From: Gemmatimonadaceae bacterium
Lineage (GTDB): Bacteria; Gemmatimonadota; Gemmatimonadetes; Gemmatimonadales; Gemmatimonadaceae
Length of the DNA: 7,710 nucleotides
Reading direction: 5' to 3'
Assembly: GCA_025451425.1 (NCBI GenBank)
Contig: JANWKK010000248.1
Location: 1-7,710, forward strand
Shown here: positions 2,501 through 7,710 of the stretch, in pieces
How positions within the stretch are numbered: position 1 is the stretch's first letter
Layout of the letters: the number at the start of each line of letters is the position of its first letter
Translations under genes and position numbers: made by a program
The notes under the pieces: model-generated
Database searches by the model: none
What the model was told of the DNA's origin: nothing
Seen by the model: the letters and a program-made list of their open reading frames with translations, nothing else

Positions 2501-4954
2501 ATGGAATCATTCATTCGTGATCTGCGCTTCGTTGCCCGATCGATGGCGAGAACGCCGGGCTTCTTCATCATCGTCGTCGCCACGCTCGGCCTCGGGATCG
2601 GCGCCACCACGGCAATTTTCAGTGTCGTGAACGGTGTGCTGCTCCGTCCTCTCCCGTATCGAGAGCCCGATCGCATCGTTCGCGTTTGGCAGGTGAACAA
2701 GAATGGCGGCGACGTTCAGTTCTCCGACCCGAACTTCAACGACGTTCGCGCCGAGACCCGAACGCTCGCTTCTATGGCGGAGTTCAATGACTTGGGAACG
2801 GTATCGGTGACGACCACGCACGACGCTGTGCGAGCACACGTCGCGGCAGCGTCGAGCGCATTCTTCTCGATTCTTGGCGTGCACCCGCTCGTTGGGCGCG
2901 CATTCGTACCCGAGGAACAGCACGTGGGTGCGCCTGGCGCCGTCGTGGTGAGCCAGGGTTTCTGGCAGCGCGCGCTCGACGGCACGCCGTCAGCGTTAGG
3001 TACGGTCCTCATGATGGATGGCCGGGCGTATCGCGTCGTCGGCGTGATGCCGGCGACCGTAGATGTTCCGAGCGGTGTGGACCTCTGGATCCCGCGTGAG
3101 CTGAGCGGTCCGTCGCCATATCGCACCGGCCACAACTTCCAGGTCATCGCGCGGCTGCGCGATGGCGTGACGCTCGAGCAGGCGCGGCGCGAGACGAGTG
3201 CGATTGCCAAGGTTCTCAAGCAGCAATACGGCGACGAAACGTGGATGTACGACGCGCATCTCATACCGCTGCGCGAACAGTTGGTCGGCGACGTGCGCCC
3301 CGCCTTGATGGTCGTGCTCGCGGCCTCAGGATTCCTTCTGCTCATCGGCTGCGCGAACGTGGTGAATCTCCTCGTCGCTCGTATGGCGGCGCGCGAGGGC
3401 GAGCTTGCGCTCCGCCTCGCGCTTGGCGCCGGCCGCGGCCGACTCGTGAGGCAGTTTCTGGCAGAGTCGCTTCTTCTCTCGTTGTGCGGCGGCGTGCTCG
3501 GGGTTGCAATCGGCACCGCGGGCGTCAAGGCTCTTCTCGCGCTCGAGCCGGGCCGGTTGCCACGAATCGGCGAAGTCGGTGTCCACTGGCCCGTCCTGCT
3601 CTTTGCGCTCGCCGTATCGATCGCGTGCGCGGTCGCGCTTGGCTTGCTCACAGCGTGGCGCGCAACGCGCGGGGATATTCGGGAGACCCTGGCGCAATCA
3701 CAACGGACGCAGGCCGGCGCTGGCGCGACGCACCGCGTGCGCAACGCGCTCGTCGTCGCGCAGATGGCTCTCACACTGGTGCTGCTCGTCGGTGCCGGAT
3801 TGTTGGCGCGCAGCTTCGAACAGCTCCTCGCCGTCTCGCCCGGATTCCATGCAGACAATGCGGTCGTGATGGACGTCGACTACCCGGGCGGCGACACGAC
3901 GGCGCGGCACCAGATGGTGCAGCTCTACGACGAGCTGATGCCGCGATTGGCAGCGCTTCCCGGCGTCTCGGAAGTCGGCGGTTCGAACTTCTTCCCCTTC
4001 GCCGGCGGCAGCATGGGTGATGGCGCTTTCATTATAATGTCGCGCCCCGACGAGAAGATCGACTTCGCGCAGATTCCGACTCTGCTCAAGGACAAGACTC
4101 GGTCGGGGTACGCGCAGTTCCGCGTCGCCAGCCCCGGCTTCTTTCGTACGCTGCACATTCCGCTCGTGAGTGGCCGACTGTTCGACGATCGCGACGCACC
4201 GACCGCGCCGCCAGCCGCGGTGATCAACGAAGCGCTCGCACGCAAGCAGTGGCCTAACGAGAGCCCCCTCGGCAAGATCATTCAATTTGGCAACATGGAC
4301 GGCGACCTGCGCCCGTTCACGGTCGTGGGGGTCGTTGGCGACATTCGCGACGCGAGCCTCGCCGAGGCGCCGGACCCAACGTTTTACGCATATTACCGGC
4401 AGCGGCCGGCGCGCGCGGGAACCTTCTTTTTCGTGCTCGGCGACGCGGGCGCGGCGTCCAGCGTCATCGCCTCGGCGCGTGGCATCATCCACGATCTGCG
4501 GCCGGACATCCCACCGCGCTTCCGCACGATGGAGACGATCCTTGCGGACTCACTCGCCGATCGGCGCTTCACGCTGGTGTTGTTGGGCGCCTTCGGCGCG
4601 GCGGCGCTGTTGCTCGCGACGTTAGGCGTGTACAGCGTGATCTCCTTCCTCGTGACCCAGCGCCGCCAGGAGATCGGCGTCCGTGTCGCGCTCGGCGCAC
4701 GGAGCGAGGATGTGCTGCGCTTGGTGCTGCGCCAGGGTGCGTCGTTGGCGCTGATTGGGGTCCTGATCGGCGCCGTCGCCGCGTTAGGCCTCACGCGGCT
4801 GCTCTCGGGGCTGCTCTACGGCGTGAGCCCGACGGATCCGCTTTCCTTCGTCGCGGTGATGGTGTTACTCACGTTCGTCGCGTTGGTTGCGAGCTTTGTT
4901 CCAGCACGCCGCGCAGCGAAGGTCGATCCGATGACGGTGCTGCGCGGGACCTGA
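2501..4954 (+). CDS. ADOP-family duplicated ABC permease (MacB/FtsX-like)
   Basis: An 817-residue inner-membrane protein with two MacB/FtsX-like halves. Eight membrane segments are visible at about 21-45, 268-292, 321-345, 363-386, 415-436, 691-715, 746-768 and 781-803. MacB-type periplasmic core regions lie at about 50-265 and 445-685. The N-terminus (RDLRFVARSMARTPGF, LGLGIGATTAIFSVVNGVLL) and the C-terminus (PARRAAKVDPMTVLR) are family hallmarks. The duplication shows in GELALRLALGAGRGRLVRQF (near 300-320) against QEIGVRVALGARSEDVLRLV (723-742), the cytoplasmic loops that contact an ATPase. Family knowledge: ADOPs are abundant in Acidobacteriota and related phyla, are often encoded without an adjacent ATPase, and have unknown substrates, though MacB relatives act in efflux. 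No ATPase gene is in this window. The start has only a weak GAGAA six bases upstream, but the N-terminal match supports it. The full length is intact. Confidence 0.95.
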   Translation: MESFIRDLRFVARSMARTPGFFIIVVATLGLGIGATTAIFSVVNGVLLRPLPYREPDRIVRVWQVNKNGGDVQFSDPNFNDVRAETRTLASMAEFNDLGTVSVTTTHDAVRAHVAAASSAFFSILGVHPLVGRAFVPEEQHVGAPGAVVVSQGFWQRALDGTPSALGTVLMMDGRAYRVVGVMPATVDVPSGVDLWIPRELSGPSPYRTGHNFQVIARLRDGVTLEQARRETSAIAKVLKQQYGDETWMYDAHLIPLREQLVGDVRPALMVVLAASGFLLLIGCANVVNLLVARMAAREGELALRLALGAGRGRLVRQFLAESLLLSLCGGVLGVAIGTAGVKALLALEPGRLPRIGEVGVHWPVLLFALAVSIACAVALGLLTAWRATRGDIRETLAQSQRTQAGAGATHRVRNALVVAQMALTLVLLVGAGLLARSFEQLLAVSPGFHADNAVVMDVDYPGGDTTARHQMVQLYDELMPRLAALPGVSEVGGSNFFPFAGGSMGDGAFIIMSRPDEKIDFAQIPTLLKDKTRSGYAQFRVASPGFFRTLHIPLVSGRLFDDRDAPTAPPAAVINEALARKQWPNESPLGKIIQFGNMDGDLRPFTVVGVVGDIRDASLAEAPDPTFYAYYRQRPARAGTFFFVLGDAGAASSVIASARGIIHDLRPDIPPRFRTMETILADSLADRRFTLVLLGAFGAAALLLATLGVYSVISFLVTQRRQEIGVRVALGARSEDVLRLVLRQGASLALIGVLIGAVAALGLTRLLSGLLYGVSPTDPLSFVAVMVLLTFVALVASFVPARRAAKVDPMTVLRGT

Positions 4955-4961
4955 GGAGCGC

Positions 4962-4980
4962 GTGGCGCGCGGCGCGCCAC
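4962..4980. terminator. GC-rich hairpin between convergent genes, candidate bidirectional terminator
   Basis: A perfect 8-bp stem GTGGCGCG/CGCGCCAC closes a 3-base loop (CGG). It starts 8 bases after the permease stop and ends 9 bases from the peptidase stop, where a shared terminator is expected. There is no U-tract on either side, so it is not a textbook intrinsic terminator and may only protect the 3' ends. Confidence 0.5.
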
Positions 4981-4988
4981 TAACTACT

Positions 4989-6653
4989 TCACTTCAACCG
5001 CGGATCCGTCGTTCGTGGCGCCTTGGTGCACTCCGGCCACGTGGTCGAGAAGCCACGGCCGCCGCGACCACCGCGTCCAGCAGCGGCAGGATTCGCTGCC
5101 GCCTGCTGTTGTGCCGCCTGCGCCAGCGCCGCGAGATCGACGCGCTCGCGCGTGATCAAACTCGGATCTTCCGACGCGAGATAGGCGAGCATCGCCGTCA
5201 GCGTTGCGTTCGACTTGAGGTCATCGAAGACGACCTTGTCGTAGGTATCGCGGTTGGTGTGCCAGGTGTACGCGTTGTAATCCCATGGCAGCGCACCGAG
5301 ACCGAAGGCTGGCAGCCCATAACACGCGAAGGAGAAATCATCGCTGCCGCCGCCCGCGGGTCGACCCGCACCCGCAAAGTTGATCTGTGCCTTGAACTCC
5401 GTTGGCACCTTGTCGAGCCATTGCGCGATGTGCTCAGCCGCGTTAGGCAAGCCGCCGCCGCCCATGCGCACGATGCGTCCCGTACCATTGTCCTGATTGA
5501 ACAGCGCCTGCAGCCCCTTGAGGACCTCAGGGTGGTCTTCCGTGAAGGCCTTCGAGCCGACTTCGCCCTCTTCTTCGGCACTCCAATGGCCAACAAGAAT
5601 GGTACGCTTGGGATGCGGATACACCTTCTTGAGGATCCGCATTGCCTCGAGCATCGTTAGGGTCCCGGTGCCGTTGTCCGTCGCGCCCGAGGAGCCGTCC
5701 CACGAGTCGAAGTGCGCCGAGAGCATCACGTATTCGTCCGGCTTCTCCGTCCCCTTGATCATCGCGACCGTGTTGTACACCGGCCGCTCACCGAGGAGCT
5801 CGGCGTCGAGGTTGAGACGGAGCTTCGGACCTTCGTTGTTCTCGGTGAGACGATACACGAGGCCGTAGTCTTCGCAGCTCAGCGCGATCGTCGGCGCGCG
5901 AGTGTTATAGGTCTCGAACACCTCGATCGTGCCCCAGCCGCCGCTGGCGCGCTGGAAGTCGAGCTTGGGACGCGACGTGATCACGCCGGCGACGCCGCCC
6001 TCCTCGAGGCGCTTGCCAAGCTCGCCGCCGCCTAACGCGAGACTGTAGCCAGTGCCGCGAACGTTGCGTCCGCCCCATTCGCGCTGGATGCCAGCCGCGA
6101 GGCTGTCCATGCGCTCGTTGGACTCGGGCGTCGCGTTCTGCTTCCAATCGTCCGGTGGACGGCAGGTCGGCATCGGCGCGGAAACGAGCACGAGCTTACC
6201 ACGTGCATTCGGCAACCACTTCACGAATTCGCTACTGTCGGCAAAGCGCGGCAGAATGATCGGAGCGGCGGTGAGGTCCTTGCCCCCCGTGCCTGGGCTG
6301 TAGCCCACCATCTGTCCCTCGAGGGATCGCACGCGCGGACTGACGAGATCGATGTGCGAGTACCCACGGCGCCACCCACGCCAGGTGCCGTACTGCTCGT
6401 TTTTGGCGTCGATCCCCCAGGACTTGTACGTCTGTACGAGCCAGTCGTTGCCGCGCTTCTGATCGGGCGATCCCGTTAGGCGCGGACCGATCGAGTCGAA
6501 GAGCAACTGAGCGAGGCGCATCGTCTGTGAGCTGTCCATGCCGACGGCCCAGATGCGCTTGATGATCGGATCGTCGGTGGCAAAGGTCTGCGCGCGCGAG
6601 ATCGTGGGCGCTAACGCAACGCCAATGAATGCAAGTACGAAGAGTTTTCGCAT
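4989..6653 (-). CDS. Secreted M28-family zinc peptidase with PA domain (carboxypeptidase Q/aminopeptidase-like)
   Basis: A 554-residue exported metallopeptidase expected to trim N- or C-terminal residues from peptides in the periplasm or outside the cell. Seen: a signal peptide RKLFVLAFIGVALAPTISRA with cleavage near residue 21; a region with PA-domain character at about 125-290; then the M28 catalytic fold. The expected two-zinc ligands are all present: H314 (SAHFD), D326 (ATDNGTG), catalytic E360 and ligand E361 (AEEEGEVGS, matching EExGxxGS), D388 (FNQDNGTG) and H465 (TWHTNRD). The domain order resembles carboxypeptidase Q relatives. The tail at about 508-535 is Ala/Gln-rich, then Gly/Arg-rich (GRGGRGGRG), followed by a short end with C542. 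No Shine-Dalgarno is visible; the bases before ATG read GCCTCCAGCC. The start is still favoured because the signal peptide begins there. The gene is monocistronic here and convergent with the permease. Exact substrate preference is not readable. Confidence 0.95.
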   Translation of the reverse strand: MRKLFVLAFIGVALAPTISRAQTFATDDPIIKRIWAVGMDSSQTMRLAQLLFDSIGPRLTGSPDQKRGNDWLVQTYKSWGIDAKNEQYGTWRGWRRGYSHIDLVSPRVRSLEGQMVGYSPGTGGKDLTAAPIILPRFADSSEFVKWLPNARGKLVLVSAPMPTCRPPDDWKQNATPESNERMDSLAAGIQREWGGRNVRGTGYSLALGGGELGKRLEEGGVAGVITSRPKLDFQRASGGWGTIEVFETYNTRAPTIALSCEDYGLVYRLTENNEGPKLRLNLDAELLGERPVYNTVAMIKGTEKPDEYVMLSAHFDSWDGSSGATDNGTGTLTMLEAMRILKKVYPHPKRTILVGHWSAEEEGEVGSKAFTEDHPEVLKGLQALFNQDNGTGRIVRMGGGGLPNAAEHIAQWLDKVPTEFKAQINFAGAGRPAGGGSDDFSFACYGLPAFGLGALPWDYNAYTWHTNRDTYDKVVFDDLKSNATLTAMLAYLASEDPSLITRERVDLAALAQAAQQQAAANPAAAGRGGRGGRGFSTTWPECTKAPRTTDPRLK

Positions 6654-6689
6654 GGCTGGAGGCGATGATTCAAAGAAGTAGGTGGCGCT

Positions 6690-6802
6690 GTTTTAACAAA
6701 GTCATGTGACTTCCCTTGTGCAAGGAGTTGCGAATGCGCAGGGAGCGATCCGGGTGATCTGTTGCACCCGTCGAATCCGTACCACCTCTTCGTCATTGTG
6801 GC
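6690..6802 (-). repeat. Dispersed ~113-nt repeat, copy 1 (left of GxxExxY gene)
   Basis: Read on the minus strand this copy starts GCCACAATGACGAAG, then GGTGGT. Four 9-nt units follow in plus coordinates 6780-6745 (ACGGATTCG, ACGGGTGCA, ACAGATCAC, CCGGATCGC), then TCC and AACTCC (6729-6724). Its 3' third is the most diverged of the four copies, with TTGTTAAAAC where copies 3 and 4 have TTGTGAACG, so the 6690 boundary is approximate. It is inverted relative to copy 2, with the GxxExxY gene between them. Confidence 0.85.
6692..6723 (-). promoter_or_regulatory. Weak candidate promoter for the M28 peptidase, inside repeat copy 1
   Basis: On the minus strand TTGCAC (6723-6718) is followed after about 19-20 bases by TGTTAA/GTTAAA (6698-6692), with the peptidase ATG 39 bases further on. 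Spacing is long and the -10 match poor. It is listed because only 36 bases separate the peptidase start from the repeat, so any sigma70-type promoter must overlap the repeat. Confidence 0.2.
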
Positions 6803-6868
6803 TCTTTTCGATGTCTTCCGCACGGAAACGATGCCGACTCGGCGGCCTGTGACAGCAAACTTTCCCTC

Positions 6869-7390
6869 ATGGAACTTGTCGAGTCCAAGCTCACCGGCTC
6901 CGTCATTAGCGCCTTTTACGAGGTCTACAACACTCTCGGCTTCGGGTTTCTCGAGTACGTCTACAAAGCGGCACTCGAACGCGAGCTACTCGCACGCGGT
7001 CATCGAGTCGCGCGAGAGGTAGGGGTTGTCGTTTTCTACAAAGGCGATCCGCTCGTCGCACAACGCCTGGACATGATTGTCGATGACAAACTCGTCATCG
7101 AGACTAAATCGACCGCGGGACTGGCTGCGGGAGCGCAACGCCAGCTTCACAACTACCTGCGTGCGAGCAATCTCGAGGTCGGGCTCCTTCTGCATTTTGG
7201 GCTTGAGCCAAAGTTCTATCGAGTCGTCGAGTTGCGCGCCAGAAAAGCCACTATGAAGAAGGGTGGTACGGGTTCCACGGATGCAACTGACTCAACGGAT
7301 CGCTCCTCGGCACACGAGACGCCGTGCGCAACGAGCCCGGACGATGATTCTTTGGAACGACCCCGGGAGGCGTCTAGCACCAGCACCTAG
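6869..7390 (+). CDS. GxxExxY family protein (PD-(D/E)XK nuclease-like), with repeat-derived C-terminal extension
   Basis: A 173-residue predicted cytoplasmic protein. The family signature is present as G26-F-L-E29-Y-V-Y32, preceded by the typical N-terminus (LTGSVISAFYEVYNTLGFGFLEYVY). A PD-(D/E)XK-like core follows: D68 (QRLDMIVD), E78-T-K80 (VIETKS) and Q92 with NYL (RQLHNYLR). These suggest metal-dependent nuclease chemistry, but I know of no established role for the family. Members are usually about 120-130 residues, and the domain here ends near residue 122-126 (FYRVVELRARK). From codon 127 the frame runs into repeat copy 2, adding a hydrophilic tail with TGS-TDA-TDS-TDR and ending at TAG. 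There is no clear Shine-Dalgarno (AAACTTTCCCTC before ATG), but the family N-terminus starts at this ATG. The gene stands alone in a repeat-rich patch. Confidence 0.9.
   Translation: MELVESKLTGSVISAFYEVYNTLGFGFLEYVYKAALERELLARGHRVAREVGVVVFYKGDPLVAQRLDMIVDDKLVIETKSTAGLAAGAQRQLHNYLRASNLEVGLLLHFGLEPKFYRVVELRARKATMKKGGTGSTDATDSTDRSSAHETPCATSPDDDSLERPREASSTST
7247..7360 (+). repeat. Dispersed ~113-nt repeat, copy 2 (overlaps 3' end of GxxExxY gene)
   Basis: Starts GCCACTATGAAGAAGGGTGG. Four perfect-register 9-nt units follow at 7268-7303 (ACGGGTTCC, ACGGATGCA, ACTGACTCA, ACGGATCGC), then TCC, GCGCAACGAGCC, GACGATG and a diverged end TTTGGAACG. It encodes residues 127-164 of the GxxExxY product. 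It is in direct orientation with copy 3 and inverted relative to copies 1 and 4. Confidence 0.85.
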
Positions 7391-7400
7391 CACCTAGTGG
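7374..7400 (+). repeat. Short tandem CTAGCAC repeat across the GxxExxY stop codon
   Basis: CTAGCAC, CAGCAC, CTAGCAC and CTAGTGG lie head to tail. The TAG of the second full unit (7388-7390) is the stop codon, so the last codons (SSTST) are made by this microrepeat. No function is evident. Confidence 0.6.
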
Positions 7401-7440
7401 AGTGTCTTTGAAATCCCGATAGCAGGAGGGGAGGCGGAGT

Positions 7441-7572
7441 ATGGCCACAATGAAGAGGGGTGGTACGGATCCCGACGGATGCGACTGGTGCGACGGATCG
7501 CCCCTCGAACGAATCCGAACTCCACTCGCAACGAGCCCGACGAACTTTGTGAACGACCTCGGTCGGCCGTGA
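7441..7572 (+). CDS. Possible 43-aa small ORF inside repeat copy 3
   Basis: ATG at 7441 follows a purine-rich stretch with GGAGG (7430-7434) at a good 6-base spacing. The frame gives 43 codons to TGA at 7570-7572. The peptide starts MATMKRGGTDPDGCDWCDGS, has a CDWC pair (C14, C17), and matches no family I recognise. Almost the whole frame is repeat copy 3, and the other copies do not keep this frame, so it is more likely a chance ORF than a conserved gene. The strong ribosome-binding site is the only reason to list it. Confidence 0.2.
   Translation: MATMKRGGTDPDGCDWCDGSPLERIRTPLATSPTNFVNDLGRP
7444..7555 (+). repeat. Dispersed ~113-nt repeat, copy 3 (left arm of palindrome)
   Basis: Starts GCCACAATGAAGAG. 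Units at 7465-7501 are ACGGATCCCG, ACGGATGCG, ACTGGTGCG and ACGGATCGC, followed by CCC, GAACTCC, CGCAACGAGCC and the terminal TTTGTGAACG. The first unit has one extra base, which breaks the 9-nt register once. Confidence 0.85.
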
Positions 7573-7594
7573 GCCACGAACCTGACTGGTGTGC

Positions 7595-7706
7595 CGTTCA
7601 CAACATCGTCACGGCTCGTTGCGTGAGGAGTTGTGTGTGATCACGGAGCGATCCGTAGAATCCGGCGTTTGTCCGTTGCATCCGTACCACCCTTCGTCAT
7701 TGTGGC
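7595..7706 (-). repeat. Dispersed ~113-nt repeat, copy 4 (right arm of palindrome)
   Basis: Read on the minus strand from 7706: GCCACAATGACGAAGGGTGG, then units in 7685-7648 (ACGGATGCA, ACGGACAAA, an 11-nt variant ending GGATTCT, ACGGATCGC), TCC, AACTCC, ACGCAACGAGCC, GACGATG and TTGTGAACG. Its end lies only four bases from the window edge. Confidence 0.85.
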
Positions 7707-7710
7707 TACC

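Follow-up and report, generated by a model that had tools for sequence, protein, structure and literature searches.

The intervening sequences of 23S rRNA genes place a small open reading frame, coding for a four-helix bundle, between inverted repeats. REP/RAYT systems (REPtrons) and TIRtrons are among the known systems closest in plan to the locus studied here: a single small gene has short flanking inverted repeats, and related repeats are dispersed singly or in pairs (PMC3733652). The REPs themselves carry a GTAG tag according to the sections available of two papers (PMC8266576, PMC3733652). The protein family at the centre of the present locus, GxxExxY, appears in the accessible text of one paper as a domain mentioned beside a reverse transcriptase (PMC8934634), and the corresponding sections of the three papers that name GxxExxY or its Pfam entry give no function for the family (PMC8934634, PMC12085832, PMC9756366). 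Among the titles and abstract openings listed in literature searches, none described a link between the GxxExxY/PDDEXK_3 family and repeats.

The window, by which the whole analysed stretch of 7,710 nt from a Gemmatimonadaceae bacterium is meant, carries genes for a SusC/RagA-type receptor, an ADOP permease, an M28 peptidase and a GxxExxY protein (Table 1). Around and behind the last of these, a repeat recurs in the order copy 1 (minus), GxxExxY gene, copy 2 (plus), copy 3 (plus), copy 4 (minus), with halves of about 65-125 nt. The four copies and their orientation agree with the preliminary description, and in a self-comparison of positions 6641-7710 the copies match each other beyond chance (E values: copies 3 and 4, 4e-31; copies 2 and 3, 1e-18; copies 1 and 2, 2e-13). 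Copy 1 is indeed an inverted arm, but its clean part is shorter than had been drawn (Table 1); with copy 2 it forms an inverted pair (6742-6786 / 7262-7306, 80% over 45 nt). That no other likely gene lies between copies 1 and 2 was borne out by the list of open reading frames and by a scan of four proteins, of which only the GxxExxY protein falls inside. The repeat is built partly of units of about 9 nt resembling ACGGATTCA, as can be seen directly in the sequence, and copy 2, placed within the 3' end of the gene, encodes the protein tail KATMKKGGTGSTDATDSTDRSS. Copies 3 and 4 make up a gene-less palindrome of 263 bp (7444-7706) downstream of the gene, formed of the same repeat as the arms. 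The term "structured repeat" that had been applied to all copies suits this pair, which has a strong single-stranded DNA fold (z = -9.9; 0 of 200 shuffles as good), but not the single copies, which lack an RNA fold signal (z = 0.36, -0.25, 0.50 and 0.08 for copies 1-4). A search for RNA families in 6600-7710 gave only two matches, both below the gathering score.

Table 1. Features of the insertion and its surroundings in the window (positions are those of the window).
Feature	Position	Strand	Basis
M28 peptidase gene; borders the insertion	4989..6653	-	PF04389, E 1.4e-33; syntenic in G025
Native intergenic flank, common to the window and G025	6654..6737	.	local alignment with G025 stops at 6737
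Left inverted arm (copy 1), outer end GGAGCGATCC	6742..6811, right limit approximate	-	inverted pair and longer gapped alignment
GxxExxY gene, PD-(D/E)XK nuclease family	6869..7390	+	PF13366, TIGR04256, conserved columns, model
Right inverted arm (copy 2), within the 3' end of the gene	7240..7306, left limit approximate	+	self-comparison, inverted pair
Continuation of copy 2 toward the equivalent of the palindrome centre in copies 3-4	7307..7371	+	self-comparison to 7371; profile match to 7345
Copy 3, left half of the gene-less palindrome	7444..7567	+	self-comparison, profile, fold
Copy 4, right half of the gene-less palindrome	7604..7706	-	self-comparison, profile, fold

The window protein matches PF13366 (PDDEXK_3; 106.9 bits, cut-off 22) and TIGR04256 (GxxExxY; 103 bits, cut-off 35), and these two families only; no known transposase family was matched. 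It has 2659 homologues above threshold, and distant matches occur in 8 plasmid records. Across 48 sequences G26, E29, Y32, D68, K80 and Q92 are invariant while E78 and Y96 are at least 90% conserved, and the window protein has all eight residues, which spell out the GxxExxY motif and the nuclease-type D, ExK and QxxxY columns, the latter of which we read as catalytic. Its AlphaFold2 model (mean pLDDT 84, low in the repeat-encoded tail) finds Cas4 SSO0001 as the best PDB match in Foldseek (E 1e-4), followed by LHK-Exo and an archaeal Holliday-junction resolvase, with TM-scores on the query below 0.5 for all three. Taken with the conserved columns, the model suggests a nuclease-like protein of the PD-(D/E)XK, Cas4/RecB-like kind. 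The lone sequence match among solved structures (E 0.33) was set aside as chance. The gene is under purifying selection, with a median omega of 0.16 in the 40 of 113 relative pairs that have dS between 0 and 2, pairs that overlap and hence are not independent. A tail of the same TDxTDxTD type is present in 12 of 20 relatives compared, taken from at least 120 listed. Two near-identical window-like GxxExxY proteins (P0017, P0023) have a Casimicrobiaceae label in one source. Membership among anti-phage defence genes was considered as well: the window protein matches no PADLOC defence family; it has nothing clear in PHROGs either, and among three proteins scanned one relative gave weak Cas4-like PADLOC matches (E 4e-4 at best).

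The best match to the window among 148 Gemmatimonadaceae genomes is G025, 83% identical over window positions 3485-6667 (locus L307). Past the M28 start codon, related intergenic sequence continues in G025 up to window position 6737 and is unrelated from there on, and the left arm begins at 6742. The flank 6668-6741 aligns with G025 better than 1000 of 1000 shuffles, whereas the arm from 6742 onwards is equalled by 217 of 1000; L307 contains no GxxExxY reading frame and no match to the repeat profile at E up to 0.1. From the stop in homology and the contrast between flank and arm it follows that gene and repeats are a block absent from G025. The left end of this block falls on the outer tip of the arm or close to it, with an uncertainty of about 25 nt because a weaker profile match to the repeat extends left to 6716. 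After this comparison, which covers the left end of the block alone since the window ends at 7710, the early idea that window-type blocks terminate at palindrome tips was given up for that end. Gain in the window lineage and loss in that of G025 fit this pair of sequences equally well. The preliminary description had pointed to loci without the element as a way of finding its ends, and such loci exist, both here and at further sites.

Elsewhere G025 itself has a GxxExxY gene with window-type arms in the order (- gene +). No GxxExxY frame was found at this site in any of the nine relatives' loci inspected; both flanks are on one contig in eight of them (G001, G071, G019, G015, G033, G039, G021, G014), and the stretch between the flanks in gene-less relatives measures 44 to about 450 bp. 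The gene-less state of the relatives fits a gain in G025. The junction of this block (L257, L258, L262) is kept in several relatives, and its neighbours look like the terminus of zapA and a stretch resembling 6S RNA. The same genome also holds two window-type halves placed face-to-face and separated by about 100 bp of gene-free DNA, in the same order as around the window gene (L042:1523-1811). In one Bacteroidales genus a palindrome, the gene and a palindrome follow each other in G157, G152 and G198, the frame of G198 carrying a stop codon, while bare flanks occupy the same site in G191, G203, G190 and G196. One gene-less palindrome of G157 is absent from G191 and G203 and shows a possible target duplication of 7-9 bp with a mismatch, read by eye in this single case; no target duplication could be resolved at the gene-bearing blocks compared (window against G025, and the Bacteroidales site). 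At defined orthologous sites the unit that bears the gene is either there or missing, and the same holds for at least some of the gene-less palindromes.

A further site, first seen in G028, holds a GxxExxY gene in G028, G159 and G161, enclosed in the first two of these by arms of the ACCACGGAGACACGGAG type, each about 35 nt long; short gene-less stretches take its place in G074, G103, G125 and G091, and a lone array (CACCACAGAGGACACAGAGGACACAGAG..., L190:2790-2850) in G162. G074 has another GxxExxY gene about 2 kb from this gene-less site. In G100 a GxxExxY gene stands between a pair of units that elsewhere in that genome makes short gene-less pairs, the gene occupying the place where those pairs have only a spacer. 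Such alternation between gene-bearing unit, lone array and nothing, together with the nuclease-like nature of the protein, would also be expected of a homing-like process, in which the nuclease would cut unoccupied palindromes and the gene would be copied in by gene conversion, so that the palindromes would be targets and not derivatives. This reading is nevertheless quite unlikely, as gene-less sites without any palindrome occur in G025 (the window site), G191, G203, G190 and G196, from which it follows that insertion is not limited to existing palindromes.

The inverted framing was then scored in general, by aligning the upstream flank of each gene to the reverse complement of its downstream flank, for the 66 GxxExxY genes with enough flank in 60 fetched regions from listings ranked by profile score; 4404 positions in the same regions served as controls. 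Besides Gemmatimonadaceae, these genes come from a planctomycete, a member of the Neomarinimicrobiota, two genomes of one Bacteroidales genus and an Omnitrophota genome, and 3 of the 60 regions (L141, L142, L183) from genomes first picked for window-type repeats. With 120-bp flanks, 24 of the 66 genes exceed the 99th percentile of the 4404 controls (0.7 expected) and 23 the 99.5th; with 200-bp flanks, 36 exceed the 95th and 21 the 99th percentile. Scored in direct orientation, the same 66 genes lie at the background median, with 10 above 17. A larger set of 129 distinct genes, enlarged with more from genomes noticed for their repeats, with relatives of one another and with the window itself, and freed of duplicates and of loci with less than 200 bp on either side, has 71 genes above the 95th-percentile score in inverted orientation and 26 in direct orientation. 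These direct scores (above 17.5) probably reflect full palindromes on both sides, which align in either orientation. In about 45% of these genes (58/129) the inverted score does not exceed the 95th percentile. Control places scoring above 26 merge into 24; 18 of these, which look GC-rich, come from G021 and G020. The arms themselves consist of short units in arrays, for example ACCACAGAGNNACAGAG, CACGGATTTCACGGATAACACGGAT and ACGCGGAAAACGCGGAAA, and their orientation differs from locus to locus. The association of gene and repeat recurs in other genomes and phyla and is not an accident of the window contig. An Omnitrophota genome, G158 (about 1.4 Mb), has 22 GxxExxY matches (L095, L106, L111, L118, L123), many of them fragments with stops, a pattern as expected of decaying mobile genes.

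Relatives of the repeats are also dispersed in the genomes of the window's relatives, with many copies away from GxxExxY genes. For 38 arms, matches outside the own locus numbered 51 in the regions of the own genome, which add up to about 2.6 Mb, and 84 in those of other genomes, which add up to about 40.6 Mb; the densities are thus about 20 and about 2 per Mb, a roughly tenfold difference. Since all of these regions are centred on GxxExxY genes, the own-genome matches may partly adjoin other such genes. Within the sampled regions 18 of the 38 arms have own-genome matches and 20 have none, and two arms (L176, L148) account for 23 of the 51. GxxExxY genes are present in 102 of the 148 Gemmatimonadaceae genomes and window-type repeats in seven, five of which also have the gene. 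GxxExxY genes occur in 18 of 20 genomes with at least 20 CCACRGAK pairs against 84 of 128 others, a weak association (Fisher p = 0.036), and the genome-wide number of such pairs has a median of 16.5 where the GxxExxY flanks contain at least three CRCRGAK units (n = 26) against 2.5 where they do not (n = 20; p = 0.003, uncorrected for kinship). In the Bacteroidales genus the gene is found in 9 of 11 genomes with at least eight query matches and in 6 of 8 with fewer, the query being a 3-kb stretch whose matches are not all palindromes. When genomes are compared, arms are more alike where the proteins are more alike (rho 0.22; none of 500 permutations gave so high a value), with base composition and descent uncontrolled; among paralogues within genomes the relation is not significant (rho 0.14, 52 pairs). 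Repeats without a detected GxxExxY gene occur in G007, G078, G092, G097, G190 and G191, many of which are incomplete assemblies judging by contig numbering, and assembly gaps or later gene loss could be the cause. The link between gene and repeat drawn in the preliminary description is partly upheld, by recurrence, by the own-genome density of the arms and by the presence and absence of blocks, but it does not amount to tight coupling, given the dispersed copies and the repeat-bearing genomes without a detected gene.

For comparison, framing was scored at genes of another family, TIGR02436, whose products we take to be four-helix-bundle or S23-type proteins without a nuclease fold. Thirty loci were drawn from more than 100 listed matches, and 26 of the 29 with enough flank exceed the 95th-percentile inverted framing score. 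Their arms (L277-L306, e.g. L285, L289, L306) consist of inverted tandem units of about 7 nt, of the AGGAGTC, GTGAGTT and AGGAATT types. A flank pair has on average 7.76 exact tandem 7-mers at TIGR02436 genes, 0.07 at GxxExxY genes and 0.03 at random places. For CRCRGAK the averages at GxxExxY genes are 1.88 in the (+ gene -) arrangement and 1.00 in the opposite one, against 0.10 and 0.24 at TIGR02436 genes and 0.32 and 0.33 at random places. Repeats without enrichment near GxxExxY genes had been named at the outset as the finding that would speak against a link; instead, CRCRGAK units are enriched beside these genes. The two gene families follow one plan with a different unit, which helps the case for specificity.

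Since genes presumed to lack a nuclease share this plan, a nuclease is not needed for the layout, and the framing of 26 of 29 TIGR02436 loci in the same style favours the main rival explanation, according to which another enzyme, such as a RAYT-like HUH transposase acting in trans, would move the repeats and the GxxExxY gene would be cargo, perhaps a selfish or addictive passenger. Genomes rich in repeats in which no GxxExxY gene was detected point the same way, as do the RAYT-type genes with flanking TIRs already published (PMC3733652). A common mover would, however, not be expected to leave a unit class that differs by gene family within the same genomes (CRCRGAK against tandem 7-mers), and when the fetched loci, 2.07 Mb in all, were scanned for motifs, one plausible Y1-type gene came up, unframed; transport as cargo appears rather unlikely. 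The gene in question (L160:1371-2441, motif MPDHLH) is a Y1-transposase-like frame about 8 kb from a GxxExxY gene and has no inverted arms. The same unit classes bear on the proposal that the repeats serve as ordinary terminators or regulatory palindromes of intergenic DNA and that GxxExxY genes merely settle in their midst. The strong fold of the palindrome and the position of some blocks directly behind terminator-like hairpins, as at the G028 site, would agree with it, yet the mirror-image framing at both ends well above controls, the presence and absence of blocks, the family-specific units and the array make-up of the arms have already disfavoured it, and it is very unlikely.

The evidence supports the view that the window contains a small insertion element composed of a GxxExxY nuclease gene and inverted arrays of short units, with gene-less relatives. 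The best explanation, to which we give about as much credence as doubt, is that the nuclease acts on the repeat of the insertion element that encodes it and that the gene-less palindromes are MITE-like derivatives. The nuclease would recognise its own unit arrays, that is, many short mirror-image sites able to form a hairpin or cruciform, and would cut at or near them; the element would then be moved or copied via strand transfer or repair, and palindromes without a gene would be moved in trans, depending on the nuclease for their spread. The chances that the nuclease is the mobilising enzyme are, in our estimate, about even, and gain rather than loss is presumed at each site. More broadly, the GxxExxY block suggests a little-noticed kind of mobile element. 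It is conceivable, though somewhat short of an even chance, that GxxExxY genes form a widespread undescribed class of minimal mobile DNA, in which a PD-(D/E)XK nuclease mobilises its own inverted arrays, the binding word drifts between lineages and swarms of gene-less palindromes depend on the enzyme, with TIGR02436 genes and their inverted tandem 7-mers as a parallel second class. If this is true, many unnamed genes and unexplained intergenic repeats share one explanation, and the enzymes behind minimal mobile elements come to include one with a nuclease fold. Because the two gene families are cleanly separated by unit class, repeat recognition is directly testable.

Compared with known systems, the locus had been put forward in the preliminary description as a possible nuclease analogue of a REP/RAYT system. 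The layout is alike, with repeats that flank the gene and are, in the genomes of relatives, dispersed as well; it is not a REP/RAYT system, since the gene between the arms matches PDDEXK_3 only and no HUH/Y1 transposase. RAYTs are HUH/Y1 tyrosine transposases and REPs palindromes of 20-40 bp, whereas the GxxExxY enzyme belongs to the PD-(D/E)XK fold and its arms are short-unit arrays or half palindromes of about 100 nt. With insertion sequences and their MITEs the blocks share the placing of a gene between inverted arms, presence or absence at orthologous sites, and relatives that lack the gene but keep the ends; they differ in that the window protein matched no known transposase family and that block ends and target duplications are only tentatively placed. 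Homing endonuclease genes are likewise small free-standing nuclease genes spread at sites, but the GxxExxY gene is enclosed by inverted arrays of its own, and some gene-less sites lack an array altogether. The 23S rRNA intervening sequences, finally, resemble the blocks in their small open reading frame between inverted repeats, a layout to which that of TIGR02436 is analogous; GxxExxY genes differ from them in protein family and unit class (the tandem 7-mers being those of TIGR02436) and reside in intergenic DNA, not in rRNA.
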